Positions 32,501 through 56,709 of a DNA stretch of 64,000 bases are shown piece by piece. The stretch is from Unio delphinus. Taxonomy: Eukaryota; Mollusca; Bivalvia; Unionida; Unionidae. Every line of letters begins with the position of its first letter. The first letter of the stretch is position 1. Position numbers and translations under genes: made by a program. The notes under the pieces are model-generated. The model did not search any database, was not told where the DNA came from, and saw nothing but the letters and a program-made list of their open reading frames with translations. The stretch is taken from NCBI GenBank assembly GCA_029339505.1, contig JAQISU010000022.1, positions 17,923,001 to 17,987,000 of the forward strand, in the 5' to 3' direction.

Positions 32501-32516
32501 GAAATCTTAGGATTTC
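32501..32516 (-). terminator. hairpin on the A2 penton stop codon
   Basis: GAAATC-TTAG-GATTTC, a perfect 6-bp stem whose loop holds the stop codon (32507-32509). The E3 gene has a different perfect stem at the same place. A palindrome, GTCTTAAGAC, lies at 32490-32499. Confidence 0.5.
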
Positions 32517-35084: not shown

Positions 35085-35300
35085 GTGTACGGTTTTATGG
35101 GGTGGTTTAGTCGATAATGATATAGCATCTAGGACATTAATTACTTCCTGGCCGCATATTGGCGGGTCGAGATTAATAATACCGGTTTCAGCGCTGTATG
35201 TTTGTTGTGGTAATTGATCAAGCATAAAAACACCTCTGAAGCTTTTTTTATTGTTAACTGTTTAGCAGCATCAAGTAAATCAGAACTTGACAGCGGTTTT
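35085..35300 (-). pseudogene. A2 adenain-type protease, truncated
   Basis: 'SSDLLDAAKQLTIKKASEVF' and the segment around 'DPPICGQEV' (catalytic Cys) remain. The middle part with the catalytic His is deleted. Confidence 0.65.
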
Positions 35301-35344
35301 AGTAAACCGTCAGTGGCAACCTCAGGCCTTTTCCGCTGTACCAT

Positions 35345-35770: not shown

Positions 35771-35784
35771 ACATGTTTACATGT
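35771..35784 (-). terminator. hairpin on the A2 capsid stop codon
   Basis: ACATGT-TT-ACATGT, a perfect 6-bp stem with the stop codon (35777-35779) in the loop. E3 and B have other perfect stems at this place. Confidence 0.55.
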
Positions 35785-36620
35785 TTTCTACTGGTTCATC
35801 AACGACTCTCATTCGTCCACCAGTACCTTCGAGTAACATCGATTTGACACTGAGAATGACTGCTATTACTCTGTAGTTAAGGACAAGTGGGGCTGGAGCA
35901 ACCGGAAGAGTTACAAGAGCTCGGATTTGTATGTCAACAACACTCTTTCTGGTTAAATGAAGATGTTCCAGCGAAAATTAATAAATCAGATATCGATTTT
36001 TAAAATCCAATTGTGATATGCGCAGACCAGTATCTGCATTTTTATCACGTCTCAAAATGTCAGCAAACGATTGATGATACGTGCGTACTATTTGGTTTTG
36101 TCCGTGATTAAGTAAAATATCGTCGGATGGTTCTTGTTGGTCGTTGATCCTTAACGAGACTTCAGAAACATCCAGTTGATTAATTATCATATGACTCCGA
36201 GTTTGTGAATTTCATCCTGTTTTATCCAGTAGCGCAACAAAAATATTCCGTGGCGCAGAAACACCTTGTTTTGATGCCATGTACCATGTAAATATACCGT
36301 TAATAGAACTCTCCATTTAGGCCGTCGTAACTGTTAGCCATGATAGCAATGATTTACCACCTGCATCCAAAAATGATAGTAATTTTGCCTCTGCAGTGAT
36401 CGATTTAGTCATTACTGGCATCCACAATGAAAGTTTTGTTATATTTACTTTACCATCAGCAACACCAGAACCAGGCCAGATTGCATCATTATCATATTTG
36501 CTCGTATGAGGACTACTGTTTGATTCGCTCCAAAGATAACCTTTCTAACATTTCTACAAAGTCCGAAAATGTGGGATAGTGGAATCGCGTATCAGATAAC
36601 CTTGTGACGTGCATGGACTT
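35777..36620 (-). pseudogene. A2 major capsid protein, 5'-truncated
   Basis: The C-terminal half of the E3-type capsid gene: 36190-35978 reads 'VSLRINDQQEPSDDILLNH'. Several frameshifts. The gene is cut near 36620 by the dispersed repeat. Confidence 0.75.
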
Positions 36621-36649
36621 TATGCATGATCAGTCGATCACCGGGGGTG

Positions 36650-36905
36650 AGTGGAGGTGGCATTAATATCGTTTAGTGATTCTGGTCGAAGTATCAGAAA
36701 CATCAATGATATTGAGGTGTCGCACCAGAAAAAAAGAACGTTCTTATCTACTTGCTGATGCTGATGTTGTACGAGGAAGCCATCCTGCATCCAACTTATA
36801 TAAGTCTCAACAAGTCCGTTCGACAAGGTTAACATTCGATGACCAAAACTTAACAGCTGGCAAAATGCCAAAGGCAGAGGAAGCATTAGTCAGAGGTTGT
36901 AACAC
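36650..36905. repeat. dispersed repeat, copy 2
   Basis: Same family as 2735-2985, placed between Polinton fragments A2 and B. The open frames here on both strands are not recognised. Confidence 0.6.
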
Positions 36906-37149
36906 GAAAACATTTGCTGCTTGTAAGAATCTCATAGAGTCGTTTTCTGGATCATCATATATGATAGTGGCGAAGGTCTTTAACGAAACAGAACACAATT
37001 TTTAATTTCGTTAGTCTTGAATCTACTTGGTTAGTGTGCCAAGCTATAGGATATTGCAACAAAATTGACGATGTCCTCATGCCTTGTGAACTGTTCTTGC
37101 TATACGACTGTTTTTTTTTTAGCCATAAGTAGTTATCTCTCAATTGCTC
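36906..37149. other. junction sequence between A2 and B
   Basis: Nothing recognised apart from weak coding-like frames next to the repeat. Confidence 0.3.
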
Positions 37150-38067
37150 TAACTTCTAGCTTCTTCCGATAATTTAAATGTTGGAATATCTTCTACACGT
37201 ATATTATACTTCGCAACAAATTTTTTCTCGTTCTAGGATCATCATCTTCTGATACTTTTTGAATAATTTGTGTATTAAATACTTCCATGTCAAAGATAAT
37301 TTTATTACATATTTCTACGACGCTGATAAATTCTTTTTAGGTGAGAGTACCAGATTCGGTAGATACCAACAACAACGAAAAATCGTTATTCATTGCTGAA
37401 ACATTTACAGTGATTTTATCTTGTCGAGTTATGTAATATCTATCAAGATGTCGTGTTATTGCGAAAAAATCTAACTTTGTATACTCGGTATACTCCTATA
37501 ACTTTTTACCTGATTATCAAGTTTTATCTTGTCGGTAATATAATCAGATTTTTTAAGTTAGGGTGGTAAATCAACGGTTTCTTGTCGAGGTGGATTTTCA
37601 GGCCAACCCAGTATTGTCCTTATAGAACTCTGATAAATATCTACGACATATCCTGGCGAGTTTATCTCAATGGCAGATGATAACGTCGGCTCGTGAACTG
37701 TTATAGCGATTTTCGATTCTTTTCCAGTAATGGATTTTATTCTGCGCTGAAATTCATTATTGATTTGTTCAATTTGGTAGGACCCAGATGGTATGGAAAC
37801 AACGTTCCAGTCAGGAGTCCCGTCTTGTTTATTCTTACTCACAAACACCAGGGAATTATTTGGTTGTTGACCACCGAATGGTACTGATCTGATATTTGGC
37901 CAACTATGGTATACTCTCAGTTTTGCTATTGCTATTTCCTTCACGGAAACCGCAGTAGGGAAATTGACACTGAACTAAGGATTCGTTGAGGTTATTGATA
38001 TCATGCTGGTTTTCACCGGTGTGGTATTTTTCGCTATTCGTTGAAGTAGTTCTTGCAATGTCGCCAT
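37150..38067 (-). pseudogene. B penton-like protein, 3'-truncated
   Basis: Start ATG at 38067. 37944-37558 is open and reads 'KEIAIAKLRVYHSWPNIRS', almost identical to E3. The 3' part is degenerate and cut near 37150. Confidence 0.75.
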
Positions 38068-38520
38068 TGTTATTATATTCGTGTTCTTTTTCTAATTTTG
38101 ACATCGCGGAATCATAAACACGTACCCTCGCCGAGAACTCACTATCAGATATTAATGTGTCATCGAGTGACGACGATATCATCGAGGATAATTGGGAGTA
38201 TGCGGTTGACACAACATGGAATTTAACTACGTAGTCTTGTAGTTTACGATGGCTGCATGATGATATTTTTTGTTATATCTAAAAAATTTCCGCGATTGTT
38301 GTCGCCGCTGTATATAAATTGGAACAGCTATCGGGGCAACCACTGTCACCGAGGAGAATATTATACCAGCTCCGGTGATTACACCTGATACCGAGTACAC
38401 GGTAACGTCAACTGCGGTGATTCTTCGTCGGTATTCTTTTATTTTTTGGTGAAACTTGAAACTCCTCACTGAGTGTTTTGAGTTTAGTTTGAAATTCTCT
38501 GACCTGATCATATTGATACT
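37904..38520 (-). pseudogene. B membrane protein, frameshifted
   Basis: The frames 38511-38227 (two hydrophobic stretches around 'VITGAGIIFSSVTVVAPIAV') and 38212-37904 ('MISSSLDDTLISDSEF') match the E3 181-aa protein. The tail overlaps the penton-like start once, without the duplication found in E3. Confidence 0.7.
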
Positions 38521-38540
38521 GCAGTGGTGTCCACGTAAAT

Positions 38541-39377
38541 GATCCGCATTGAATCGCGTACACGTTATTTATGATATTTTTTTTGTTCGTGAGGGATTTT
38601 TATTTTTTCAAGTTTTTCTATCATCCTCGGTAGATCATCCTTGATGGCATCGTTGATCGTTTTAAAATCCGTGATTGTCCTCCTTATTTCCACGATTGCA
38701 TCTGAAAATGATATCTCTTCGCGAATAATCCCTAATCGCTGATTAATCGCTGTTATTTCAAAGAGTTTCGTGATAATACCAGTGAGATCTATTTTAACAT
38801 CATCGGGTTTCGAATTTTTTTTAACAAAAAAATTATCAATGGAGTTATCGGTCCTGTTAAAGTTTTTACGTAACGTAGTAAATTGAGATACATGAGCGTC
38901 ATAATCGGATCGCAATGTTGCCAAATTATCGATAGCAGATTTTACGTGTATGATTTGCAACTCGGGTTGCGAACGTGGAATACCAAAGAAATTATATATC
39001 GGGGCTTCGATATTATCAATTATACTCTGTTATAATCGACCAAAATTAATTATATGATCGTTGTATTCTGATTGTTGTTTTAGTTGGGCATCCACAATAA
39101 TTGAAATGAGGTTTCAGTTTACCCTGATCGGTAAACAACGCGATAGTATCTTCTACTGCGTCGCGTTGTTTTGTCAAAATGTCATCAAGGGAAACATTAC
39201 TAGTTTTCAATTTATCCTGACGATCTTGAAATACGACTTATTCATTGGGATCAACACTTGCTAAGTTCAACATCTCGTATATTTCATCTTCGATTATTTT
39301 TTTTAACATCACTGGTTGTAGATGTTACTGCGGTGTTTTTTTAGGATTGATAGAGATCTCCCCCAAATATCAATCAT
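38541..39377 (-). pseudogene. B fibre-like protein, C-terminal domain mostly deleted
   Basis: The coiled-coil part (38960-38565) ends 'MIEKLEKIKIPHEQ'. The beta-rich C-terminal domain is reduced to a short stub (38520-38565) fused to the membrane-protein gene. The start matches the E3 fibre ATG (39377). Confidence 0.65.
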
Positions 39378-39398
39378 GTTATTTTATATAATTTCTCT

Positions 39399-39755
39399 TT
39401 AAAAGCGATTACTCGTATATTCATGTACGGTTTTATGTGGTGGTTTTCCCGATGATGAAATAGCGTTGAGGATATTCAATACTTCTCTGCCACATATTGG
39501 TGGGTCATTTACTTTCTGTGCTGGTAGCGTAGAATACCAGATAGTAGTTTTTAGGTGGTTTATATAACGCATAAACAACTGCACGCGGATCAATCGCGTA
39601 TGCAACCCAGTGGCTCCAGGTCCGCTGCTGTTATCGAGATTAATAATACCGGTTTCAACGTTGTTTTGGTTGTTGTGGTAATTGATCTTTCATAAAGACA
39701 CCTCTAAAGTTATTTTATCGCAAATATTTTAACAGCATCGAGTAAATTTGACATG
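39399..39755 (-). pseudogene. B adenain-type protease, decayed
   Basis: 39605-39399 covers the last third ('TTIWYSTLPAQKVNDPPICG', catalytic Cys). The N-terminus starts 'MSNLLDAVK', supporting the E3 start. The 12-base stretch forming the hairpin at the E3 stop is absent here. Confidence 0.7.
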
Positions 39756-39849
39756 GGAACTATTGTTGTTAATAAACTGTTCCTAGTCTCAGGCCGTTTC
39801 GTCTGTACGCTGAATGCGGAGTTCCTGGTAATCTTAGACCTTTTTTCTA

Positions 39850-40095
39850 TTTTTGTATCCCGGTCCCTTTTCTGGTTCATATGATTGAGCAATGCTGTTT
39901 ACTGCTTTTGCACCAAGAGCTCCAGCAGCTCCTAACGCGGCGGCTTTACCAACTAAAATTAATGCTGGAATAGCAGCGAGAAGTGGGAATACACCACCTG
40001 ATTTTATCATGTTATTAATTTTTTTTAGCTGATTCCGATTGCAATTGTTTAATTTGACCAGGAGTTAACGTAACACTAACAACACTGTATGACAT
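39850..40095 (-). pseudogene. B pVI-like protein, decayed
   Basis: Start at 40095. Ala-rich hydrophobic part recognisable around 39900-40000. A deletion removes part of the N-terminal repeats. Confidence 0.55.
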
Positions 40096-40139
40096 TTGAT
40101 TAATAATAGATTGATCTAATTGCTACATTACATAGTTTT

Positions 40140-40158
40140 GAAAATATTACATATTTTC
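40140..40158 (-). terminator. hairpin on the B capsid stop codon
   Basis: GAAAATAT-TAC-ATATTTTC, a perfect 8-bp stem, 3-nt loop. The stop codon (40147-40149) lies at the tip. E3 has a different 8-bp stem at the same place. Confidence 0.6.
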
Positions 40159-41584
40159 CACAGGTGCATCAATTACTTTCATTCGTCCACCAACACCTTC
40201 GAGTAGCATTGATTTGTCACTGAGATTTACAGCTACTTATTCTGTAACCACCAATAGGAGGAGCGGTTACACGAGCTCGAAAGTATATTTCAACGACTGA
40301 TTGTCTGGTTAAGTCAAGATGTTCCAATGAAAAGTAGTAGATGGGATATAAGTTTTAAAAATATCAATGTGATATTTGCAGACCGGTATCTACATTATTA
40401 TCTCGTCCCATAAATGAAAGCAAACGATGAAACGCGCGTGCTATTTGTTTTTGTTTTTAATCAAAAAAATTATCCTCGGTTGGTTCCTTTGACCGTTTAC
40501 ACTCAAGGAGACTTCATTAACACCAAATTTATCAAATATCATATGGCTGTGTGATTGTGAAACCAATCGCTCCCTATCCTGTAACGCAACAAATATATGC
40601 CGTGGCGCATAAATGCCTCGTTTTGATGACAGTTGCTAAGTACATGTACCATTCATATTACTCTCCACCATATCCGTGGTAGTTGTTAGCCAACTTAGTA
40701 ATGACTTGCCACCTGTATTCATAAATGATAGTAATTGTTGCTCTGTAATAATTGATTGAGTCATTACTGGCATCCACAGTGCTCGTTTTGTTATATTCAC
40801 CTTTCCACAGTCATTATCCGGATTTGCAGGATCTACTGGAAACCTCCAGATTGCATCATTATCATCACCTTTTCGCACTAAGGCTACTGTATGCTTCGCT
40901 CCGTAGATAACTTTTCTAACATTTCTGCAGAATCCAAATATATGATGTAGTGGAATCGCGCATGAGAATAATCTACGATCTCCTTTCAACATTGATACGC
41001 GTGTTGCAACCCTTATTTTGTAAAAAAGATTAGTATTTATCATCATATCTTCGTTATCAGCAGGATCAGGAGGAACAGCAGGATTAGCACCAGCAACAGG
41101 GGTACCACGATCCATTGGTAGTCTTAAATTATACTGGGCTGGTTCGGGATGATCATTAATGTCCTTAGAGAACATCATAGATGGACCTGCCGATCTTGTA
41201 TAATCATCAGAGTATTTTGCTAACCCCATTATTGTTGTGGCAACATCAACATCACGCTCTATGGATTCAATCTCCGTTCCATCAATCATGTATCTAGCAC
41301 GTTAAATAGCGCCATGATACCATTATTAACAAAGCAGACTTTGGTACCATGTGAATATGGCGGATCATTAGCAGCACGATTATCTGTTACAATTTCTCCT
41401 TCTACTTTGATAACGCTTCAGAGGGTAGAAAGAATTTGCTGGTATCCTGGACTTGAAATTCGATTCTTGATCGAAGATTCGGTTGTGTTGCATTATAGGT
41501 AAAATATTGATAATTAAGTATTGAATCATCTTTGCGCACTGAGGCGTCCATATCAAACGCTGTGTCAGGGGACAGTTTGTACAT
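40147..41584 (-). pseudogene. B major capsid protein, frameshifted
   Basis: Open segments 41608-41402 and 41289-40636 match the E3 capsid protein closely ('DVDVATTIMGLAKYSDDYTR', 'FSCAIPLHHIFGFCRNVRKV'). The start by comparison with E3 is the ATG at 41584 (MYKLSPDTAF). Frameshifts near 41290 and after 40636. Confidence 0.8.
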
Positions 41585-41629
41585 ATTATTATATATTTCT
41601 TGATCCAAATCGTTATCTCGCTCGCGATT

Positions 41630-42056
41630 TCAAGCCACTTCCCGCTATCATATTTGCAGTAATATTATCCTGGTAGGTGCTCAGTGATGCTTTATTTATT
41701 ATTTTAATAATACTTGCAGGCATAATTTCCGTAGATAGTATTGGTCCTAGTGATTTCATCACTGATGAAGTCATTGGTTTCCTTCGCCGCTAAACTAACG
41801 CTAATAGTTTTTCTTCAGCCGCGGAAAATGCTTTCCCGGCAACATCACCAACAGCGCTAATACCCTTATCACGACTAACATCAAAAACTTTCATTGATAA
41901 TTGTTTTGCGATTGGTGCTATTTTTGGAGCCATTCTTGTAAATAACCCTGCAATGGTATTACCGAGACCATCTCCACAGTACGCTCTATAAACAGGCAAT
42001 AATGAGTTTACTATATAGACCGTAGTTGGTTTTCTGTGGTTGTAGTGTATGATCAT
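41630..42056 (-). pseudogene. B pX-like protein, frameshifted
   Basis: 42056-41790 reads 'PVYRAYCGDGLGNTIAGLF' as in E3. The C-terminus is out of frame. Confidence 0.7.
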
Positions 42057-42084
42057 CTTATTTAAATACTATTTATTTAATAAT

Positions 42085-42132
42085 AAAATCGTAAACGATT
42101 TTCATTGTAAACGATTTTCAATCCTGCGGATT
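42085..42132 (-). terminator. two hairpins between the B 351-aa-type and pX-like genes
   Basis: AAAATCGT-AA-ACGATTTT (42085-42102) and AATCC-TGC-GGATT (42120-42132) follow the stop of the 351-aa-type gene. E3 has CAATT-TTTC-AATTG at the same gene boundary. Confidence 0.45.
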
Positions 42133-42149
42133 TTCAAGAAGTCATCAAA

Positions 42150-42972
42150 TCAATCACTATGGTAACCGTAAAAATCCCTTGAATTTTCTGCTAGCTCATT
42201 AATAAACTCTCTGTATACATCACTATCCATGATACCACCATCAAATAGTCGTCTGCAGATATCAGCTGCCTCATTAATTACTTCCGGTGAGTTATTTCCG
42301 GCTCGTTTCCCTCCTAAGAGAATTTCTAATCGTGATATATCCCCGAGAATACTATTAGAACAACTAACTTAACCACTACCTGGTACCCTTGGAGTTCCAC
42401 TCTGAGAAAATCCATTTCCATTTGTTTGTTTTTTAGTAATACCAGTTGCAACCTGCGAAGAGGATTGTGTTATATCAAAAAGTTTTGATCGTTCTGGTAA
42501 TCTAAGACTTCCAGGATCTGATTGCCTCTGTGTAGAATATTTAACTTTTTTTTATTTCTTCCATAAAATCATTATATGTATCATCATCATCAGATACCTT
42601 AGATACACCTGTATACGCACGATATAATCCATTATACCACATTTTTTACTCATGGCAAAATAATCATTGTGGATATACTTTCTTCTCTGAGGAAAACTAT
42701 TAATGACGAAATTAGCTAATTCTTCAATATTATTAAATTTAATATTTCTTATTTCATCTAATTTACCCAGGTGGAATTTATCATTGAATGCAACTCGTCT
42801 ATTAGCAATATCACCTTCTTCTTCTTCTTCTTTTTCTTCTTCTTCTTCTTCTTCTTCTTCTTCTTCTTCTTCTTTTTCTTCTTCTTCTTCTTCTTCTTCT
42901 TCTTCTTCTTCTTCTTCTTCTTCTTCTTCTTCTTCTTCTTCTTCTTCTTCATATTCTTCTTCTTCCTCTTCT

Positions 42973-43004
<32 letters not shown>

Positions 43005-43448
43005 TTCTTCTTCTTCTTCTTCTTCTTCTTCTTCTTCTTCTTCTTCTTCTTCTTCTTCAGGTGTTAGGGATAATATCAATATGCATCATGGTTCAAATTC
43101 TTTTTGAGTTTGTTGAGCGGCTACTATATCACCAGGGATTTTTTGTAAAGATTTTTGCGTTCGTTCAGTTTCCCCTGCTGTTTTTTCAAGCATAGAAAGA
43201 AGAGGAGCTTTTTTTCTTTATCCTTCCTCGGGAATATCTCCCCATATGGCTCTTTCAGTGGTCGATACGACGTCTTTAGTTGCTGTAGAAATGGGTTTGA
43301 ATAGTTGTTGAGTGTCCAACGCAAAGTCCGTTTGATGGTCCTGTCTCGTTTGGGGCATCTTTGGAACGGAATCACGAAATGGAAAAAATTTCTCAATCGC
43401 ATCTAATCGTTTTTGTGATAATTTAGTTGTCAGTGCTTCACCCACCAT
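42150..43448 (-). pseudogene. B 351-aa-type protein with a giant poly-Glu insert
   Basis: Matches the E3 351-aa protein at both ends: start 'MVGEALTTKLSQKRLDAI' at 43448, stop at 42150. The linker is replaced by a (GAA)n tract (42814-43059) coding on this strand for ~80 Glu residues. Frameshifts flank it. Confidence 0.7.
42814..43059. repeat. (TTC)n/(GAA)n microsatellite
   Basis: About 246 bp of TTC repeat on the plus strand with a few interruptions. Poly-Ser and poly-Phe frames on the plus strand are artefacts. Confidence 0.95.
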
Positions 43449-43793
43449 TATATTAATGTACGATCTAAATGCAGTGACAAAGTCACCAGTGACGAAGTTA
43501 CCAGTGAAAAATCCGTAGATTGCTTCACCCATCCCCAATTTTCTACATTACTTCGCGTAGTGATGAATCACCAGTGACAAACCATTGACAAAGAAACCAT
43601 TGATTTAATAACCGTGCAAAAAATCGTCTATAGAATGTTGTTCTAGTTGAGTAAGCGCACCTGTCTATTGTATACTTACAAACAGGTATGGGTATTATAC
43701 ACGTCAATCCATGGAGGCGAGCAAAGGATAATTCTCAGTTTGTCGGATAATCATTTTTATTGTTTTGATCTTCGAATTAATTGTGCGTTTGAT

Positions 43794-44083
43794 TTAAAGT
43801 AGCTGCGCAAATTTTTTTCTTATTTTTTCGACAACAGTGAATAACGGGACGATTTTTTTTATATCATTTTCATATGCGAATGAGTCATAAATAGCGTGCT
43901 GAATTCGCTTGATAAAAGAGTACGCTTTTGGCAGCACGTATTTATTACTTCGTGCATTATCTTCAATATCTTGAAAATCAGAAAAAATCTGATCACAATT
44001 TAATTTATTTGATAATTGAATTCCTTGATTTTTCAAATTTAAAATTCGGTTATAATCTCGTTTATATTTTCAGAATTCATATA
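43794..44083 (-). pseudogene. B 133-aa-type protein, with stops
   Basis: Corresponds to the E3 gene 56309-56665 ('FSDFQDIEDNARSNKYVLPK'). The N-terminus 'MNSENI' is separated by two stops. Confidence 0.65.
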
Positions 44084-44139
44084 TATAATAATATATTATA
44101 TTTCTAATATATTTTCCAAAAAACAAATAAAAAATTTAA

Positions 44140-44465
44140 TATTTTTCAAAAATAAACAATAGCTATGACCTTAGCTGGCCTTTGTGTTTTTCATAGGGTT
44201 CTTTTAATTTGAGATTTATTCTCTTTGAGACATTTTTTCTCTCTTCTTTATTCTTTTTGGGGACTTCTTTCTTTCTTTTTCTCTTTGACCCTATGACCGT
44301 TTCTTTTAGCCGATAGTTCATTCTGAACTATCTTGTCGGGTTACCCTAGTGTGTGGCTTAGAGCTTTTGCATCCATGCTATTGTTTATTTTGGGGTCTCA
44401 ATTGTTCTTGGAAACCTCCACCAAGAATTAATTTCCCGGGGGTGCAAAATCACACCGTCACGTAT
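44140..44465. other. unidentified insertion with several strong hairpins
   Basis: About 320 bp that replaces the 3' end of the HNH endonuclease gene in B and has no match in E3. Complementary arms include TAGTTCA-TTC-TGAACTA, TTCTTGG with CCAAGAA, and CATAGGGT with ACCCTATG enclosing a pyrimidine-rich stretch. It could be a small structured RNA or a short mobile element. I recognise neither. Confidence 0.4.
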
Positions 44466-44469
44466 TTAT

Positions 44470-44741
44470 TCACTCTGAGAAATTGCTTGAAGATTATCTA
44501 AAGAGTTGTTTATAGGATTGGAATCAATATGATCGATTACAAACCCATCTTTTATCAATACATGGAAACACTCATATGCGATTCTGTGATTAAGATGACT
44601 TTTCCCTCCAGAATTGAATATAAGCTATCCAAGATTATTAACAACACCAACTAGTTTCTTCAGTCTGCGGTTTCTGACAATACCGTCAAGAGATGCTTCA
44701 TAATTGGTAATCACGGGATGTTGTTGAAATTCTTGGTTCAT
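44470..44741 (-). pseudogene. B HNH endonuclease, 3'-truncated
   Basis: N-terminal two thirds of the E3 HNH gene; start at 44741. The C-terminal module is lost at the insertion. Confidence 0.65.
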
Positions 44742-44754
44742 TTATATACTAAAT

Positions 44755-45106
44755 ACTATTTGTCTAATTAATTAATTGGTTTAATTATATACTTGGGAAT
44801 CTATCAATATAGTCTTGAGGTGTTATTATGATTTTGTCATTGACGCTGTCAGGGACAGAGTCAGGGTCATTGATGGAATCTTTGATTCTCTTATTAAAAT
44901 AGCGCTTTAACTCTCTGTATCGCTTACCACCACAATTGAGACACTACTGCGATTTACCACGCACACCTACCCCACAGCGGATACAAGGTTGCGGACCTAA
45001 GCTCCCAGGATGTAAACTTTGTAAATTATATCCACATAATTCATTTCGGCATGCTTTTTTTAAAAGCAGTTACTGATCCTATCATAAGCCATTTGCAATG
45101 ATTCAT
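44755..45106 (-). pseudogene. B small zinc-binding protein, decayed
   Basis: Corresponds to E3 57216-57578, with the same 'MNHCKWLMI' start at 45106. One cysteine-rich part is frameshifted. Confidence 0.6.
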
Positions 45107-45149
45107 TATATAATAAGTTCTTTATTTAAATACTTGTTTTAATTATAAT

Positions 45150-45240
45150 AAGGAGGAGTTCGAGAGATTATCGAAAATTACGCCTTGGTAAAATGTTGAA
45201 TTCAATCTCGATAGAGTCTCTCCACTGATGTACCAAAGAG
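45150..45240 (+). pseudogene. B remnant of the Lys/Arg repeat ORF
   Basis: A single diverged unit ('EFERLSKI'-like) precedes the polymerase gene where E3 has five units. Confidence 0.4.
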
Positions 45241-45259
45241 TCTAATAAGTTATAGAAGC

Positions 45260-46755
45260 ATGATAGGTAAAATTCGTGATGGTGTCAATGAGTTCAAGCG
45301 CGATGGAGCAACTCACTGTTGGTCGACATTTCGAATAGATGGTAGTGTTGATGCTATCATTAACGACGAAAGAGCAGAAGTGATAATCTCACATCTTCAC
45401 CAAAAAAGTATTTTTTTAAGAGTAAAATTCATTATCCGCTCAGAAACGGGAATTGGATTACACGCGACAAATTTGAACCCATCTTGAAAAAAAGAGAACC
45501 GCCATTGTGAGTCAGGATTCCAAACCAGGAATTCTGACTGGAATTGACAAACCGTATTACGAGAGATCGTATCCTGTAACAGCAGTTGTTTATTGGATCT
45601 ATCCGATAAATGATAAACCGAGTATTGAAAAACAAAAACCAATGAAATATTTGTCGTTGAATTGTGTAGCAGAACGAATAATAGAACACTTCACAAATGC
45701 ATTGCGTGGAAAGAAAGATCTAAGACGCAAAAAAAATAAATGAATGGGGATTAACAGTGAAAGAGAGCGGAGCAACAATTTAAAATGTGGCTGCGTTAGA
45801 ACGGATACTAAAATTACCAATATCCGCAGAGACAGTAACAGGCGAGATATTATACGACTCGAAATATAAATCGAGAGGATCTCCAGTCAAAATTATTGAC
45901 CATAATGCACACGCTTGGACACCTGCGGTAACAATATTTCCCCAGGATAGAACCATAAAATATTACACGGGAAATCTATTTGATTTTATATACGAGTTAA
46001 GTGAAAAAGATTCTCTGTCAGTGTGGTTACTTCACAGTTGTGAAGACGAAGAGGGTAAATTCGATCAATTTGTAAGACCCAATGGCGAATTATACCGTAC
46101 TGAAACCCTCCAAAACGAGATGAAAAAGATAGCTAGTGGTTTTTCAACGGATTACGACGAACAATTATTAACAAACTGTTTTACAATTCCGTCAGTTGCA
46201 GCTCATTTCACGAGAATGAGAAATCTATGAAACCCAACTCACGCAGAATTTCTGTCAGATATCGAATCAAGCTGCATCGAGTACAACCATGGTGTATTAT
46301 GGAATACAACATAGGCCCCTAAAATTATTATCTCGGTTGATATGATTGCGTGTTATCCAGGGAGTTTTCTTGGGTACGGAGAGTTCTCTGAGTACTTCAA
46401 ACGTTTTGGACATCCCACACATGAGATTACCGGCGTTGCGATTAATGGATCACTGCCTGATTTTGATCTCACCGGATTCGCTCGTGTGGTATCATTTGAA
46501 TTGGCTAAAGGACTTCATCCGTGTTGTTATGTTTGGTTTGGTAGACACATCTCTGAAAAACACTGGATGCCAATAGTATTATTACTGTATATGATTAATT
46601 CTAAAATGCTGATATCGCTGATTGTCAGTGAAGCAATTATATCATATCGAGCGCAGACTAAAGTCTGGTTACCACAACCCGGTCTAGAGAGTATAATCAG
46701 CGATAACAAAAAACAATTCCCTGATCTCAAGAGAGATGAAACAACGAGGAATTAA
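45260..46755 (+). pseudogene. B DNA polymerase B, frameshifted
   Basis: Starts 'MIGKIRDGVNEFKRDGA' as in E3. Open segments 45787-46230 and 46342-46755 include motif A region 'SVDMIACYPGSFLGYGE' and 'GFARVVSFELA'. At the place where E3 has a TGA, this copy keeps the Trp codon in a shifted frame, so E3's stop is a recent change. The polymerase is cut after 'KKQFPD', joining helicase sequence directly. Confidence 0.75.
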
Positions 46756-47050
46756 TGATTACACTTATCACAGTTTCTTTCAATGGAAAGGTGACGAATG
46801 GACTCCTGATCGAATGGGTGAAAAACATATTCCTGAAGTCATGATTTCGGATGAGATATGCACAGTGTTGTTAGATATATTACAAAGATTTCTCGATTGG
46901 TTATTTGCTAGCGAATACAAAAATGATAATGTGTGGTTAACCACGACCATTTGTCGGTTTGTCTCCACATAATTTTTTGAAGAATTTTGTAGACTATTAT
47001 GAAGAAATTAGTACTGATTATAGATCACTTGATGAACAATTACCACATCG
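46735..47050 (+). pseudogene. B helicase fragment
   Basis: Matches the middle of the E3 helicase ('YHSFFQWKGDEWTPDRMGEK', then Walker B-like 'ISDEICTVLLD'). It ends at 'YRSLDEQL', where a deletion jumps to the zinc-ribbon region. Confidence 0.7.
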
Positions 47051-47152
47051 TACACACTTACCACCAAGTGCTGATCTGTTATTTTTAGTTGTAATCGTCG
47101 TCGAGTCGTTTGTGCTAGTAGGCTTCTTACATGTCACACAGTATAGATACAT
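47040..47152 (-). pseudogene. B zinc-ribbon part of the phospholipase protein
   Basis: Minus-strand match to the first ~37 codons of the E3 zinc-ribbon/PLA2 gene. The PLA2 part is deleted. Confidence 0.55.
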
Positions 47153-47170
47153 AATTTATTGATAATAAGA

Positions 47171-47420
47171 TGAATGTAATTGATTTGTCGGCGACAAAAC
47201 GCGAGAACCAGTTAAGTATCATGATATTCGCATGATTATAATCGGACCATCTGGAAGTGGCAAGACGCAACTGCTACTTAATTTGATAACGAGATGGATA
47301 AAATGAGATAAACTATATATGATTGCTCCTAGTGTAGACGATCAGCGATGTTACGAGGTGTTAAAGGATTTTAACGAGAAAGCAGAATCGGAAATCGACT
47401 GATGATACTCTAAGATACAA
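47171..47420 (+). pseudogene. B packaging ATPase, truncated and frameshifted
   Basis: Starts 'MNVIDLSATK', which supports the second ATG as the E3 start. Walker A 'GPSGSGKT' is preserved in one frame. Similarity ends near 47420. Confidence 0.7.
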
Positions 47421-48062
47421 ACTTCGTCGAATTAATATTTCCAGAAGTACATGCCGTAAAAGTTGTATGAACAGAAGTAAAATGTAAACGAACAACTCGG
47501 CCATTTTAGTTAGGTTTGCAATTCACCTTGCTATTATTAGTTCGGACCATAACTGTACTCTCAATATGGCAAACTTGCTAACCATCGGGAAACGTGTATT
47601 CGCATAAAATGACTGTCAGTCAAGGGACCGGGTTGACTGGAAGCATACAAATTTGGCAGCCCCTATTACTTGACATTGTGATGTTTGCTAGTTGCCTTGA
47701 ACGGAAGACCGAATGTAAATGGAAAATATAACGCTCATTGCATTGCGACTAGACTTCATGCAATGAGATAATGCAGTATCTCTATACTCAATGCCGTAAT
47801 TTATTGCGTGTGAAATATAATATTAATATTGTATTGCCTATTTTGGATCAGATAAATACATTTTTCGCAAAACATAGTGTAAATGAACGTTTAAAATGAC
47901 GCTTCTAATAAAACAAATCTTTAAAACCAGTGTGTACTATTTGTTGAGATACCACACCCACCCATCATTTAAGCCAATCTTTAATATAAATTGCTCTTAA
48001 ATGATAAAGTAGATTTAGGTATTGGAATATTTTTTCTATTGTAGATAGCACGGCTTTGAGCC

Positions 48063-48159
<97 letters not shown>

Positions 48160-48414
48160 GCCTTCTCTTTGTGGTCATGCTGCATGTTCTGAGATTAATA
48201 ATGTTTTTGAATCAGATGTAATCGAGTCGAAACATCTCATTGTGGATATACGATATACTCATTTACAAGCAGCATGACTAAAAACTTGACTGTTTCAGAC
48301 AGACATACATAAAAACACTGAAACTGCAGTTTTTATAATGAAGATAAATAAAATATAAGTGTTAGCATACGTAAAGTCTGGTTTGGTGCCTTATATTTAT
48401 CTTGTACCATCATT
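47421..48414. other. host sequence between B and E3
   Basis: No gene recognised. A (GA)n microsatellite occupies 48067-48154. Confidence 0.4.
48067..48154. repeat. (GA)n microsatellite
   Basis: About 44 GA units. The frames across it are artefacts. Confidence 0.95.
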
Positions 48415-48660
48415 GTTAAGCTATGTGGTAACTGTGAGGTAAACAGATCGGAATGTAGGATTTTAGATGGTGAGGCCAAGTGACATCTGGCAAGCTATGC
48501 TTCGTTACTGAACTTTTGGTACTGATGATGAACCAGGTATGTCAGTACAATTGATTGGTACGCTGTGAGTTATGACATAAGCAACATCTGATGAAGTAGG
48601 CAGACATCGATGCACGGTTGTTGACGAAATCAGTCTGTGACGCAAATATAGAATTAATAA
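48415..48660. repeat. dispersed host repeat, copy 3
   Basis: Third member of the family at 8590 and 8985. E3 is inserted 20 bp beyond its end. Confidence 0.65.
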
Positions 48661-48676
48661 ACACATCCATGGGATA

Positions 48677-48681
48677 CGACG
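48677..48681. repeat. target-site duplication of E3, left copy (CGACG)
   Basis: CGACG immediately precedes the left terminal repeat and recurs at 63990-63994 immediately after the right one. Polintons usually give 6-bp duplications. Here the sixth base does not match. Confidence 0.65.
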
Positions 48682-48939
48682 AGCAGGGTGAACCCTACAA
48701 CGTTTTCAGACAAAATTTTGATTGAAATCCTAAAACGAGCCTTCCTACGATCTCATTTTAACCAAAAAAAATGTCTCAGGGGCAAACCCTACAACGTTTT
48801 CAGACAAAAAATTTATTGAAATCTTAATGAGCTTTCCCTACGAAATCTCATTTTAACTAAAAAAATGAAAACGGAGACTTTTACGATTTTTTAATTAATT
48901 TTGGTCGCAACTTGTTGTCATCCACCCTCTCTGCTGCTA
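48682..48939. repeat. left terminal inverted repeat of E3 (258 bp)
   Basis: Identical to the inverse complement of 63725-63989 except for a 7-nt gap next to the outer tip (AGCAG then GGTG here, AGCAGCAGAGAGGGTG on the right). It contains two ~90-bp subrepeats starting at 48691 and 48785, each beginning 'aaccctacaacgttttcaga'. The inner end CACCCTCTCTGCTGCT is the inverse of the right outer tip. Confidence 0.97.
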
Positions 48940-49012
48940 AAGTTTTCAGTTCTGGTTAACAAAAATAATAAATGATTTGATTGAGTCTTTATGATGAAAG
49001 TCCTTAGGACGA

Positions 49013-49028
49013 AAATCATTTATGATTT
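49013..49028 (-). terminator. hairpin on the E3 penton stop codon
   Basis: AAATCAT-TT-ATGATTT, a perfect 7-bp stem. The stop codon 49020-49022 is at its tip. GTCC-TTA-GGAC follows 3 bp further 3' on the minus strand. Confidence 0.55.
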
Positions 49029-50411
49029 CACAAACAGACTAATCGCTAACACCTCTTCTTGTAAATCAATCAGATTATTAGATTGGTCGGTGAGTTTGAA
49101 ATTAATTCTCGTTAACGAATTATTATGGCATCGCATGTAGACAGGATTAATTGGGTTTTCAATAATTAGGAATCCTGGAGGAGCTGTTGGTGCAAACGAA
49201 TAAAGAATATATCCTTGCTGAGCTTGATTTGATCGTTCGAGATTAATTTGATAGCTTCCTTCGATAACATCACATACTAAATTGAGCGCAATCACTGAGG
49301 ATATATTCACGTTGAACGGAGCGATATGCCTGCCGCCTCCGTCTGGGTCATTATTATGTTTGAGGATTTTTATTTCCGGTGATGCTGTTTTTTTCCACGT
49401 ATCATGAATTATTTTGAAACCAACATCGATGGCATCATTGAGAAGTTTTTTTAGTTCCGGTACGTTATATCCCGGTAGTTTGAATGTCGGAATATCCTTC
49501 ACGGGGATTTTATATTCTGATGCAAATCTTGTTCTGGATAGGGGATTATAGTCATCTAATATATCCTGAATAATTTTTAGGTTAAATGTTTCCATATCGT
49601 CGATAATTTTATTGCATGTTTCTACGACGCTGATAAATTCATCTCGGGTGAGAGAGCCGGATTTAAGAGATATTAACAACAGCGATAAATCATTATTCAT
49701 TGCTGTGAAATTTTTAACGATTTTAGGTTCGTTAACAAAATGATGTCCCTCTATTCCCTCCCCTGGCTTCTCTCTTCCAGTTGAGTGATATCCGAAACCA
49801 AAGAAATCTATAGTAAACTTGTGATCTTTATAACTCTTTACTGGATTATCAGGTTTTATTCTGTCGGTGATATAATCAGTTTTTTGTGGTTCTGGTAAAT
49901 CAACGGTTTTTCCCCCTGGTGGTAATTCAGGCCATCCTAGTACGGTTCTAATAGAACTCTGATAGATATCTACGACGTATCCTTCTGTGTTTATCTCAAT
50001 TGCGGATGATAGCGTCGGTTCATGAACTGTTATAGCGATTTTTGACTCTATTCCAGTAATCGATTTTATTCTACGCGCGAATTCATTATTGATTTGTTCG
50101 ATTTGGTATGATCCGGTTGGTATGGAAACAACATTCCAGTCTGGGGTTCCGTCGTCTTTATTCTTATTCGCAAACACCAGTGAATTATTCGGTTGTTGAC
50201 CACCAAATGATTTTGATCTGATATTAGGCCAACTGTGGTATACTCGTAGTTTTGCTAGCGCTATCTCCTTCACTGGGACCGGAGAGGGGAAATTCACACT
50301 GAATTCTGGATTCGTTGATGTTATTGATATCATGCTTGTTTGTACTGGGTTCGTGTTCTCCACTATTCGTTGAAGTAATTCCTGCGGTGTTGTCATTGTT
50401 ATTATACTCAT
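49020..50411 (-). CDS. E3 penton-like minor capsid protein
   Basis: 463 aa, intact. Residues ~26-165 ('SMISITSTNPEFSVNFPSPV', 'NNSLVF', 'IPTGSYQIEQINNEF', 'SSIRTVLGWPE') and ~370-463 ('LNLVCDVIEGSYQINLERSN', 'YILYSFAPTAPPGFLI', ending 'ISLFVKS') match the two halves of a beta-rich minor structural protein found in invertebrate Polintons. I assign it as the vertex (penton) protein. A helical, charged segment (~200-345) is inserted between the halves. It is the gene closest to the left end. Its first codons lie in a tandemly duplicated stretch shared with the end of the next gene. A hairpin sits on its stop. Confidence 0.7.
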   Translation of the reverse strand: MSIITMTTPQELLQRIVENTNPVQTSMISITSTNPEFSVNFPSPVPVKEIALAKLRVYHSWPNIRSKSFGGQQPNNSLVFANKNKDDGTPDWNVVSIPTGSYQIEQINNEFARRIKSITGIESKIAITVHEPTLSSAIEINTEGYVVDIYQSSIRTVLGWPELPPGGKTVDLPEPQKTDYITDRIKPDNPVKSYKDHKFTIDFFGFGYHSTGREKPGEGIEGHHFVNEPKIVKNFTAMNNDLSLLLISLKSGSLTRDEFISVVETCNKIIDDMETFNLKIIQDILDDYNPLSRTRFASEYKIPVKDIPTFKLPGYNVPELKKLLNDAIDVGFKIIHDTWKKTASPEIKILKHNNDPDGGGRHIAPFNVNISSVIALNLVCDVIEGSYQINLERSNQAQQGYILYSFAPTAPPGFLIIENPINPVYMRCHNNSLTRINFKLTDQSNNLIDLQEEVLAISLFVKS

Positions 50412-50645
50412 GATTTATTTCTAATTTTGGTATCGAGGAATCATAAATACTGACCATCACTGAGAACTCACAATCTGGTAATGTTGATATTATTGAGATC
50501 ATTTTGTTTTTTGGGTTCGTGTTTTCTGATTCCATCGGTGTCGTCATTGTTATTATACTCATGTTGTCGCTCTAATTTCGATATCGCGGAATCAAAAATA
50601 CTGACCATCGCTGAGAATTCACTATCTGATATAATCGTATTATCG
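50290..50645. repeat. ~170-bp tandem duplication across a gene junction
   Basis: Two diverged copies of the sequence that joins the end of the membrane-protein gene to the start of the penton-like gene. Both contain 'catgagtataataacaatga' on the minus strand. One consequence is a 112-aa hybrid open frame (50562-50224), which I do not regard as a gene. Fragments A2 and B have the junction only once. Confidence 0.8.
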
Positions 50646-51013
50646 AGTGACGACGATATCATCAGGGATAACTGCGAATATGCGGTTGATGCAATATGAA
50701 ATTGAAGTAAGTAATTCTGCAGTTTACTCTGGCTGCATGATGATATCTTTTTTGCTATCCCGGTTGATATACCCCCGATTGTAGCCACCGCAGAAATGCA
50801 AATTGGAACTACGACCGGGGCAATCATTGTAACCGATGCAAGTATTATTCCGGCGCCAGTGAGAACGCTTGACACCGAGTATATAATAACATCAATTGCG
50901 GTGATTCTTCGTCGGTATTTTTTTATTTTTATTTGATACTCCTCAGTGAGGGTTTTGAGTCTATTCTGAAATTCTCTGACCTGATCATAGCGACATTGAG
51001 TTGATGACATCAT
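50468..51013 (-). CDS. E3 two-pass membrane protein
   Basis: 181 aa, intact. A helical charged N-terminus is followed by two hydrophobic segments (about 41-62 and 64-84, rich in Val, Ile, Ala and Gly). A helical region follows with 'MISSSLDNTIISDSEFSAMV', whose 'D.....SD.EF' spacing recalls a calcium-binding loop. Similar proteins neighbour capsid genes in invertebrate Polintons. The Asn-rich C-terminus was altered by the tandem duplication at 50290-50645. Role unknown; a membrane-active virion component is plausible. Confidence 0.65.
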   Translation of the reverse strand: MMSSTQCRYDQVREFQNRLKTLTEEYQIKIKKYRRRITAIDVIIYSVSSVLTGAGIILASVTMIAPVVVPICISAVATIGGISTGIAKKISSCSQSKLQNYLLQFHIASTAYSQLSLMISSSLDNTIISDSEFSAMVSIFDSAISKLERQHEYNNNDDTDGIRKHEPKKQNDLNNINITRL

Positions 51014-51047
51014 TTTTATTTTAAAAACACTAGCGTTTTCAATTGTG

Positions 51048-51080
51048 AAATCCGAAGGATTTAGTTATTTACTTAAATCC
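51048..51080 (-). terminator. alternative hairpins at the end of the E3 fibre-like gene
   Basis: AAATCC-GAA-GGATTT (51048-51062) and GGATTTA...TAAATCC (51057-51080) share the GGATTT arm, so only one can form. The stop codon 51065-51067 lies in the loop of the second. Confidence 0.45.
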
Positions 51081-52013
51081 GCTACGAATTCCACATACCA
51101 GGTTGCTGAAACCTTAATCAAATTTTTATCAGTAGCTGTTATAGTGAACTTTTCAGTTGTATCCTTGTCGATGATCGTTGAAATCGTATTGTTGACCCCG
51201 GATGAACTCGACGATGATATATTAAATTGAGTTAATGGTGTTACTAGTGTTAATCGATAAATACCCTTAACGGTTGCAGTGATATCTAATTTGTTGTTTG
51301 TAGGTGTCCACGCAAATGATCCGTGTTGGATTGTATATACCACGTTGTTGGTTTTCTCATGAGGAATTTTTTGTTTTTTCAATGATTGTTATCATCCTCG
51401 AAAAATCACCTTTGATGGCTTCGATGAAAGTTTTCGTCTCATCGATGGATTTTTTAATATCCGGGAGTTTTATTTCAATTTTATCTAACGGGGTTCCAAT
51501 AAATTTATCAATGATATTTCTACGAAATGATGTAAACTGTTTTCCGTTTTCTTCAATTCTAGATTCAAGTGTTGTTAGTACAAACACAGAATTGTTTAAC
51601 TCATCGTTGAGAGTTTTTAATCGATCTGTAATCGTCGAAACGAGTACACCCGGTTTGGGTTTACCCTGATCGGAAAATAACGCGATAGTATCCTCGATTG
51701 CGTTTTGTTGTTTAACCAAAATATCATCCAGAGAAATATTACTGGTTTTCAATTTACCCTGATCCGAAAATAACGCAACGGTGTTCTCGATTGCGTTTTG
51801 TTGTTTAACTAAAATATCATCCAACGACACATCACTAGATTTCAATTTACCCTGTTTGTCTTGAAATACAACTATTTCATTAGGATCAACATTTGTTAAG
51901 TTCAACGTCTCAGCTATTTCATCTTTGATTAGTTTTTTTACATCCTTGACAGAATCAGGTGGTGCAGTGCCATCGGGTTTGGGTTTCAAAGATCTCCCCC
52001 AAATATCAATCAT
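51065..52013 (-). pseudogene. E3 fibre-like protein, one frameshift
   Basis: The first part (52013-51357, 218 codons from ATG) begins 'MIDIWGRSL', has three ~31-residue repeats around 'SLDDILVKQQNAIE' (51660-51850), then a coiled-coil region. The second part (51382-51065) is a beta-rich domain with 'IQHGSFAWTP' and 'SATWYVEFVADL' and has no ATG of its own. In A2 the two parts are in one frame. Here an extra A in an A-run near 51362-51367 separates them. Coiled-coil stalk plus terminal beta domain suggests a receptor-binding fibre, by analogy only. Confidence 0.65.
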
Positions 52014-52037
52014 GTTATTGTAAAACTCTTTCTCTCT

Positions 52038-52466
52038 CTAAAATCGTTTCGATTTCCAGCGATTACTAGTGTATTCATTAACGACAACATGTGGTGGTTT
52101 TCCGCTTGGGTTACTCAAGGAGTTAGAAATAGCGTCAAGGACATTTAATACTTCGCTGCCACATATTGGTGGGTCATTCATTTGTTGTGTTGGTAGCGTA
52201 GAATACCAAGTCTTCATTGGGAGGGTTTTTATATAACGCATAAACTCTTTTTGTGGGGCTAATCCATATGAATCGAAATAAACAATCCCACGTGGATCAA
52301 TAGCGTATGCAACCCAGTGAGTTCCAGGTCCGGTGCTGTTATCTAAATTAACGATTCCGGTTTCAACGCTGTTTGGTTGATGTGGTAATTGATCTTTCAT
52401 AAAGACACCTCTGAAGTTTTTAATCGCTAGTTTTTTAGCAGCATCGAGTAAATCAAAATTGGACAT
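52038..52466 (-). CDS. E3 adenain-type cysteine protease
   Basis: 142 aa from the ATG at 52466 (MSNFDLLDAAKKLAIKNFRG), a start supported by B. Catalytic residues by family pattern are His50 in 'GPGTHWVAY', Asp65 in 'VYFDSYG' and Cys102 in 'DPPICGSEV'. This enzyme matures virion precursor proteins in adenoviruses and Polintons. Likely substrates here are the pX-like and pVI-like proteins with Gly-rich sites. The frame stays open upstream to 52577, but that extension is translated from 45-bp repeats and is probably not used. Confidence 0.88.
   Translation of the reverse strand: MSNFDLLDAAKKLAIKNFRGVFMKDQLPHQPNSVETGIVNLDNSTGPGTHWVAYAIDPRGIVYFDSYGLAPQKEFMRYIKTLPMKTWYSTLPTQQMNDPPICGSEVLNVLDAISNSLSNPSGKPPHVVVNEYTSNRWKSKRF
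52041..52055 (-). terminator. hairpin ending at the E3 protease stop codon
   Basis: AAATCG-TTT-CGATTT, a perfect 6-bp stem directly next to the TAG at 52038-52040. The bases forming it are absent from fragment B. Confidence 0.5.
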
Positions 52467-52496
52467 AGGAATCTTCGATTCCTCAATTAATAAATC

Positions 52497-52612
52497 GTTC
52501 CTGGTAGTCTTAGACCCTTTCCGCTGTACCACGAATACGGGGTTCCTGGTAGTCTTAGACCCTTTCCGCTGTACCACGAATACGGGGTTCCTGGTAGTCT
52601 TAGACCCTTTCC
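52497..52612. repeat. 45-bp tandem repeat between pVI-like and protease genes
   Basis: Two full copies (52497-52541, 52542-52586) and one partial copy of a unit starting 'gttcctggtagtcttagacc'. A2 and B have a single copy. It extends the protease frame upstream by two 15-residue repeats. Confidence 0.9.
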
Positions 52613-52995
52613 CTTTTTTTATATCCTTTCCCAGTTGCCTTCTTTAGTGCCATTCCTGCTGCAGTACCAACGGCTCCTAACGCCGCTGCTTTAGCCACCG
52701 CTGGGGCTGCTGCTGCAATCAATGCTGGAATCGCAGCTAACAACGGAAATATACCGCCTGTTTTAATCATATTTTTGATAGCAGCCGCAGAGAGAGTAAT
52801 CTGAACACCTTTTTTGGCTGCAAGTGCATCATTGAAATGTTTCACCTGACGAGTTGTCAGCGATAGTTTATTTGCACCACCAGTCATTTGGTTGGGTTTC
52901 AACGTGATTGTGGTTCCACATTTTTTAGCTGATTCCGATTGCAATTTTTTTAATTGACCGGGAGTTAACGCAACACTAATAACACTATATGACAT
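52600..52995 (-). CDS. E3 pVI-like minor virion protein
   Basis: 131 aa, intact. The N-terminal ~75 residues contain short repeats of the type 'LT..Q.K' ('ALTPGQLKKLQS', 'LSLTTRQVKHFN'). Then 'MIKTGGIFPLL' introduces an Ala-rich hydrophobic stretch (~80-115) and a Lys-rich tail. Polinton proteins with this layout are compared with adenoviral pVI, which disrupts membranes after cleavage by the protease. The protease gene lies next to it. Confidence 0.65.
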   Translation of the reverse strand: MSYSVISVALTPGQLKKLQSESAKKCGTTITLKPNQMTGGANKLSLTTRQVKHFNDALAAKKGVQITLSAAAIKNMIKTGGIFPLLAAIPALIAAAAPAVAKAAALGAVGTAAGMALKKATGKGYKKRERV

Positions 52996-53033
52996 TATAT
53001 ATAATTGATTGATTCTAATTCAATGAAAAATCG

Positions 53034-53052
53034 AGAAAATCAAAGATTTTCT
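53034..53052 (-). terminator. hairpin on the E3 capsid stop codon
   Basis: AGAAAATC-AAA-GATTTTCT, a perfect 8-bp stem. The TGA (53040-53042) lies at the tip. Equivalent but different stems occur in A2 (35771) and B (40140). Confidence 0.65.
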
Positions 53053-54449: not shown

Positions 54450-54477
54450 TTTATTCTATTTATCAGAGTCTAAATCG

Positions 54478-54495
54478 CGATGTTTCATTTCATCG
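54478..54495 (-). terminator. weak hairpin on the E3 pX-like stop codon
   Basis: CGATG-TTTCATTT-CATCG, 5-bp stem, with the stop codon 54490-54492 at the loop edge. Confidence 0.3.
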
Positions 54496-54927: not shown

Positions 54928-54957
54928 TATTTGAAATCAGAAACAATTTTTCAATTG
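54928..54957 (-). promoter_or_regulatory. 30-nt leader shared by two E3 genes, copy at the pX-like gene
   Basis: Reads tatttgaaatcagaaacaat then ttttcaattg on the plus strand, directly before the ATG. An identical 30-mer precedes the 351-aa gene (56024-56053). It contains CAATT-TTTC-AATTG (54944-54957), a 5-bp hairpin ten bases after the stop of the upstream 351-aa gene. Confidence 0.6.
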
Positions 54958-54967
54958 ACTTTTCAAT

Positions 54968-56665: not shown

Positions 56666-56709
56666 TATTCTATAATAATGATATATTTCTAAATGAAAAA
56701 TATGACGCA

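Follow-up and report, generated by a model that had tools for sequence, protein, structure and literature searches.

Candidate start and end signals of transcription in a Polinton-like element of the bivalve Unio delphinus

In a 64,000-nt stretch of the Unio delphinus genome (assembly GCA_029339505.1, contig JAQISU010000022.1, positions 17,923,001 to 17,987,000 of the forward strand; hereafter the window), an element bounded by terminal inverted repeats (TIRs), here called E3, encodes 15 genes, 13 of them on the minus strand. Besides the double jelly-roll (DJR) capsid protein and the superfamily 1 (SF1) helicase (Table 1), Pfam recognizes an HNH protein, an rve integrase and an A32-type ATPase; the protease gives an adenovirus-type match below the cut-off. 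The names "penton" and "fibre" are taken over from an initial annotation of this DNA; the penton open reading frame (ORF) has no Pfam match, the 181-aa ORF has below-cut-off matches only and the capsid protein finds no match among PDB sequences. Two decayed relatives of E3, B and A2, retain fragments of the matching late genes. Another Polinton-like element of a different kind, D (14158-26584), contains a chromodomain ORF and weak ATPase and integrase matches.

The SF1 helicase, rve integrase, DJR capsid and ATPase of E3 make up the gene set of Tlr1-type Polinton-like viruses (PLVs), while the protein-primed PolB gene of canonical Polintons was not recognized: no PolB match at E 0.1 appeared in Pfam for the 14 of 15 E3 ORFs scanned (all except the fibre). 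We read E3 as a Tlr1-type PLV rather than a canonical Polinton because it combines an SF1 helicase and an rve integrase with no recognized PolB. The initial annotation spoke of a Polinton, but E3 does not resemble a standard one. The 954-aa helicase itself is probably Tlr1-like. In Tlr1 and in PLVs with a Tlr1 helicase, an SF1 helicase likewise replaces a recognized PolB and is accompanied by DJR capsid, protease-like and ATPase genes, and Tlr1 shares the rve integrase, as described in PMC11071308. A PolB-like palm domain is a feature of helicases of this type. Searches of viral contigs (with the capsid, ATPase, integrase, helicase and a two-row capsid alignment) yielded no confirmed relatives, nor did searches of genome contigs with the capsid alignment and the helicase, or tblastn of the helicase, capsid and ATPase against a phage collection; the question of covariation therefore rests on at most three copies.

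Table 1. Features of E3 and of its relatives B and A2 (positions within the window; P values by shuffling the downstream part only, then all)
Feature	Positions	Strand	Details
E3, TIR-bounded element	48685..63979	.	TIR arms 48685-48945 and 63719-63979, 99% complementary; Pfam
E3 double jelly-roll capsid gene	53040..54449	-	Pfam PF21738, E 7.2e-17
E3 SF1 helicase gene, 954 aa	58513..61377	+	Pfam AAA_19, AAA_30; PHROG Dda-like helicase
E3 capsid-stop hairpin	53034..53052	-	8 bp, loop 3; P 0.06 (downstream-only), 0.01 (all)
B capsid-stop hairpin	40140..40158	-	8 bp, loop 3; six pairs as E3; P 0.016 (downstream-only), 0.009 (all)
A2 capsid-stop palindrome	35771..35784	-	5 bp, 4-nt loop; P 0.29 (downstream-only), 0.32 (all)
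E3 penton-stop hairpin	49013..49028	-	6 bp, loop 4; P 0.10 (downstream-only), 0.06 (all)
A2 penton-stop hairpin	32501..32516	-	6 bp, loop 4; arms largely inherited; P 0.08 (downstream-only), 0.09 (all)
E3 fibre-like-stop hairpin	51057..51080	-	7 bp, loop 10; absent in A2
E3 protease-end hairpin	52041..52055	-	6 bp; missing in B and A2
E3 hairpin just 5' of protease ATG (g131 3' region)	52467..52483	-	7 bp
A2 hairpin, site equivalent to E3 pre-protease one	35294..35309	-	6 bp, different bases
E3 351-aa gene stop hairpin	54953..54968	-	6 bp; overlaps ATTGA box of next gene
B hairpin 3' of 351-aa gene, before 145-aa gene	42085..42102	-	7 bp
B hairpin over 145-aa gene stop	41607..41630	-	6 bp, loop 12
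E3 hairpin between HNH and g133	56662..56681	-	8 bp; contains g133 ATG
TTAGA box	53014..53018	-	23 nt before g131 ATG; also B and A2
ATTGA box	53020..53024	-	29 nt before g131 ATG
TTAGA box	54469..54473	-	24 nt before capsid ATG; TTGGA in B
TTAGA box	52037..52041	-	28 nt before g218 ATG; also A2, TTAAA in B
TTAGA box	50420..50424	-	13 nt before penton Met1 or 28 nt before Met6; 28 nt in B
TTAGA box	56688..56692	-	27 nt before g133 ATG
TTAGA box	57226..57230	-	29 nt before HNH ATG; 26 nt in B
ATTGA box	54951..54955	-	28 nt before g145 ATG; not in B
ATTGA box	56047..56051	-	28 nt before g351 ATG, upstream nearly identical to g145; TTAGA instead in B
ATTGA box	51039..51043	-	30 nt before g181 ATG
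ATTGA box	51379..51383	-	23 nt before fibre-like ATG
ATTGA box	52483..52487	-	21 nt before protease ATG; not in B
ATTGA box	62524..62528	-	29 nt before integrase ATG

Two kinds of candidate signal punctuate E3, a box before the start codons and short hairpins at the gene ends, and the start box is statistically the stronger one. TTAGA is the top enriched five-letter word within 45 nt upstream of the 15 E3 genes. Of the 13 minus-strand genes, 11 have TTAGA or ATTGA 20-30 nt upstream of the ATG, compared with 11 of 241 other same-strand ATGs; at 12-35 nt the counts are 12/13 and 30/241. In this comparison the position used for the g133 start was wrong by one base, and its true ATG was counted among the controls, which lowers the contrast (the fibre start was one base off in a listing of upstream TTAGA positions). 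The best pair of five-letter words covers 11/13 genes, while at most 9/13 were covered in 1000 dinucleotide shuffles of the 45 nt upstream, a test that takes the selection of the words into account (P 0.001), and leaving out g145, whose upstream region is nearly a copy of that of g351, still gives 10/12 (P 0.001). The two words mark two nearly exclusive sets of genes: g131 carries both, and g126, the sole gene of the 13 without either word at 12-50 nt, carries neither. The plus-strand genes fall outside the pattern, with ATTGA at 42 nt before the helicase and neither word before the ATPase. TTAGA also lies 20-28 nt before g131, g351, HNH and penton in B and before g131 and g218 in A2 (4/7 and 2/2 of the genes examined, respectively). 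The capsid and g218 genes of B show the variants TTGGA and TTAAA, and its g145 has no box; a box placed in this way was absent from 10 ORF starts of element D.

With a box before most minus-strand genes, single-gene transcripts are plausible. A splice or spliced-leader acceptor (ATTAG|A) is an unlikely function of TTAGA, since the ATTGA form has no AG. Rfam reports nothing at the gathering threshold within the window. The near-identical stretches upstream of g145 (54918-54960) and g351 (56024-56060) both end in ATTTCAAATAATG and may represent a duplicated promoter region.

At the gene ends, the five hairpins first described for the capsid (E3, B, A2) and penton (E3, A2) genes are all present, each spanning the stop codon. 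Their claimed stems of 8 bp hold for the capsid genes of E3 and B; the 6-bp stem assigned to the A2 capsid shrinks to 5 bp when a loop of at least 3 nt is demanded, and this palindrome on its own does not exceed chance. The E3 penton hairpin had been written with a 2-nt loop and amounts to 6 bp under the same minimum. Hairpins were also confirmed at the ends of the fibre-like, protease and 351-aa genes of E3, whereas the best pairing at the 351-aa stop of B is 2 bp, the 7-bp hairpin of B lying further downstream of this stop, before the next gene. The genes are tightly packed, the fibre ATG (51358-51360) even overlapping the g218 stop (51357-51359), but the gaps are not below 50 bp throughout as had been stated: 133 nt precede the protease and 285 nt the 351-aa gene. 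Further near-palindromes follow the penton stop (GTCCTAAGGAC in E3, 48946-49012; CTTAAG repeats in A2, 32457-32500). A tandem repeat of about 47 nt (52467-52625), with approximately three copies in E3 and fewer in B and A2 as judged by eye, carries the g131 stop (GGGTCTAAGACTACCAGGAACCCC...). Direct repeats spaced about 81-126 nt apart occupy 57660-58106, between g126 and the helicase and within a plus-strand 178-aa ORF.

The late-cluster junctions hold modestly more hairpins than expected by chance. Stems of at least 6 bp occur in 12 of 23 junctions (4.8 expected), and the lengths of the longest stems add up to 128 where shuffling gives 109.1 (standard deviation 4.6), both with P 0.002, the floor of 500 shuffles. 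E3 contributes 7/12 (2.66 expected, P 0.006), B 3/6 (1.47 expected, P 0.15) and A2 2/5 (0.68 expected, P 0.13), the latter two pooled giving 5/11 (P 0.03). For E3 all 12 late-gene junctions were taken in, with the first ~60 nt only for g133 and ~40 nt past the stop for penton; overlapping or unalignable copies, among them g181/penton, HNH/g133 and g218 in B and A2, were left out of the set of 23, and each shuffle test used a single random seed. Control windows of 65 nt gave observed-to-expected ratios of 1.08 (positions 1-13800), 0.78 (D), 1.22 (E3 coding), 0.59 (other E3 intergenic) and 1.16 (B and A2 bodies) after 30, 28, 19, 20 and 33 low-complexity windows had been dropped from the five sets. 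None of the three remaining E3 ends and none of 10 D ends carries a stem of at least 6 bp. Relative to sliding windows of E3, stop-overlapping stems were also in excess (P 0.002); for stems with G or C in the arm, P was 0.065 (6 bp) and 0.035 (7 bp). Fixed windows gave P 0.04 and 0.02 for the 12 late genes of E3, 0.04 and 0.13 for four B ends and 0.20 and 0.46 for three A2 ends.

The likeness of the hairpins between copies consists mostly of inherited bases. The aligned 3' ends of the capsid genes read GAAAATCTT-TGA-TTTTCT in E3, GAAAATATG-TAA-TATTTTC in B and GAAAACATG-TAA-ACATGT in A2. The claim that their stems are built from other bases applies to a part of the pairs only, as E3 and B share six (GAAAAT/ATTTTC). 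When the downstream arm is allowed to shift, two columns, as we read the alignment, change on both sides among the three sequences (T-A/T-A/C-G and C-G/A-T/A-T). Pairing each of E3 and B with its own arm gives 8 + 8 bp and with the arm of the other copy 6 + 6 bp, while for A2 the figures are 5 bp (own arm) and 6 or 5 bp (arms of the other two). The penton arms are mostly inherited between the copies. Clearly different bases are seen at the pre-protease junction (AGGAATC/GATTCCT in E3, CGGTTT/AAACCG in A2), where B has only a 5-bp pairing with a long loop, which was not counted in the junction test. Of the stops, that of the capsid alone gives evidence of the compensatory change proposed in the initial annotation (two columns, three sequences), and the arm swap is mixed.

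Several observations weigh against the hairpins as end signals and the boxes as virus-type promoters. The stems are short (5-8 bp), and the best local folding energies resemble those of shuffled sequence (Stouffer z -1.03 for 11 E3, -1.30 for six B and -0.97 for four A2 junctions). The P values vary from 0.002 to 0.1 with the definition of the window, and they are optimistic because the pattern had been picked from the same three copies. The A2 capsid and fibre ends and the B 351-aa stop are at chance level; A2 lacks the fibre hairpin, B the one at the 351-aa stop, and neither copy has that of the protease. The mean longest stem of the 15 E3 ends (4.87) is ordinary, being equalled or exceeded by 38 of 70 IMG/VR loci of similar GC (0.30-0.42, at least five ends, from loci scored with at least four ORFs), a yardstick drawn by a promoter-like pattern and probably including many phages. 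AATAAA, which had been said to be missing, is present in 4 of 12 junctions of the E3 late cluster (g133, g145, fibre, g181) and at the g351 junction of B. Within 60 nt upstream of the 15 E3 genes, the early promoter of Imitervirales, AAAATTGA, never occurs, and TCTA, the late motif of Cafeteria roenbergensis virus (CroV), occurs before three of them (3.3 expected). The ATTGA form stands at 20-30 nt in 0/6 B and A2 starts examined and is missing before the B protease, which leaves TTAGA as the one form seen in B and A2.

Three of the four E3 junctions with AATAAA have no hairpin of at least 6 bp; both end systems may be in use, the numbers being too small for a test. Exact Mimivirus or CroV promoters were rejected on the counts given above. 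The poxvirus-like TTTTTNT has five of its six late-cluster occurrences in junctions, but four of these in the single g133 spacer, and the three T7 runs all overlap within that spacer. One IMG/VR locus (GC 0.25, on a 274-kb contig) displays perfect hairpins of 14-17 bp at three of seven gene ends, well above E3.

The nearest models for hairpin-made ends come from giant viruses and their satellites. A "hairpin rule" is reported to govern the mRNA 3' ends of Mimiviridae and Marseilleviridae (PMC4402537, PMC5413956), whose palindromes, as described there, resemble those of E3 in lying near stops, between genes and without conserved sequence. The concentration of hairpins at gene ends that marks this rule is weakly present across E3, B and A2, as the 12 of 23 junctions indicate, but a stable stem beyond that of shuffled sequence is not (21 junctions). 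As reported, these viruses also encode an RNase III-like enzyme, and Mimivirus in addition a poly(A) polymerase, neither of which has a Pfam match at E 0.1 in the scanned E3 ORFs. Transpovirons and virophages are described as using the promoters and terminator hairpins of their helper viruses (PMC7031253, PMC11814242; promoters PMC11788076), with helper promoters noted for transpovirons and Sputnik (PMC11464507, PMC11998528). The closest published statement found is that helper-like terminator hairpins, together with late promoters, flank the genes of transpovirons (PMC7031253), which are also said to carry Tlr1-like helicases (PMC11071308). E3 resembles these small elements, as the sources portray them, in its candidate gene-by-gene promoter and terminator motifs; it differs in its rve integrase and capsid genes, in its position in longer DNA among other elements and in having no known helper, only the ATTGA core of AAAATTGA being found. 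The full motif is reported in mimiviruses, pacmanvirus and others, with ATTGA as its core (PMC11788076, PMC5871332). Endogenous mavirus-like elements have promoter motifs that differ by type, that of type 4 being TCTA (PMC8547959); according to this account they are, like E3, integrated and endowed with type-specific upstream motifs, unlike E3 with respect to TCTA. The parts of the PLV literature covered by term contain no text on hairpins, promoters, terminators or palindromes; the sole hairpin mention in the covered text of PMC11071308 is a reference title, and the one seen in PMC12747079 concerns giant-virus genome ends. The titles and abstract openings listed, outside subscription papers, describe no such signals for Polintons or Tlr1-type elements, and descriptions of promoters did appear among them for virophages and mavirus-like elements.

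We tentatively favor, at somewhat short of an even chance, a model in which E3, B and A2 are Tlr1-type elements with a box for each gene and weak hairpin end signals in the late cluster. The tightly packed genes would each possess their own transcription signals: the ATT(A)GA box 20-30 nt before the ATG would act as promoter, as its position and enrichment suggest, and the short AU-rich hairpins that many preceding stops carry would be weak transcript-end or polymerase-pause signals. Because a promoter box before most genes suggests single-gene transcripts, a transcript end would be needed within the short spacer, and as no hairpin-processing enzyme was recognized in the 14 E3 ORFs scanned, hairpin-made ends would need factors of a helper virus or the host. 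The role of the hairpins is supported by the confinement of the excess to late-cluster junctions with controls near expectation, and by a helicase that is, as we read it, of the type found in transpovirons, with their reported terminator hairpins. The virus-style end signal of the initial annotation is partly supported, with the junction excess and the capsid double changes on its side and the weak energies, the hairpins not kept in other copies and the AATAAA sites against it. Virus-style punctuation of the E3 genes is plausible and is hinted at by these sequence features, with hairpin-made mRNA ends as a candidate part of it.

It is almost as probable that most of the hairpins are chance pairings within junctions rich in A and T, in which A-rich C-terminal codons precede T-rich spacers, that the likeness between copies is inherited, and that mRNA ends are made by host signals such as AATAAA. 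The weak folding energies, the six capsid pairs common to E3 and B, the largely shared penton arms, the stop hairpins of the protease, fibre and 351-aa genes that the copies compared do not keep at the stop and the AATAAA in a third of the E3 junctions all agree with this. When only the downstream part is shuffled, the null sum rises from 59.0 to 61.9, and the observed 69 was reached in 8 of 400 shuffles; fixed windows give P 0.10 and 0.06 when all 15 genes of E3 are taken together. Chance pairing leaves unexplained, however, why the junctions are in excess while the controls are flat, and why B and A2 when pooled point the same way.

Much less probable is that the palindromes act as DNA, namely as operators or dimer-binding sites in the promoter of the next gene, with no hairpin in the RNA. 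Three of them (52467-52483, 54953-54968 and 56662-56681) do adjoin the next start or overlap its box, and the additional near-palindromes past the penton would fit. Yet no further gene lies between the penton and the left TIR of E3, which means that the penton hairpin does not serve a next gene as promoter, and the listed stems have no evident common sequence by eye. We give a similarly slight chance to an effect of the stop hairpins on the translation or processing of a polycistronic late mRNA, through reinitiation or cleavage into single-gene units: the packing of genes in one direction and the overlap of the fibre ATG with the g218 stop speak for it, but a promoter-like box before most minus-strand genes would be needless for polycistronic expression.

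To our knowledge, the transcription of Polintons and Polinton-like viruses, and their dependence on giant viruses, are largely unknown. It is unlikely, though still worth stating, that E3 is an integrated Tlr1-type PLV with a full virus-style grammar, a box per gene and hairpin ends in the late cluster, transcribed by a co-infecting nucleocytovirus. If so, the element would be transcribed in the factory of that virus and hence be virophage-like, and its box shares the ATTGA core of AAAATTGA. A start box for each gene and candidate end signals that can be read from the genome sequence would allow a direct test of giant-virus dependence: if a nucleocytovirus of this host also carried the box, a helper would be indicated.

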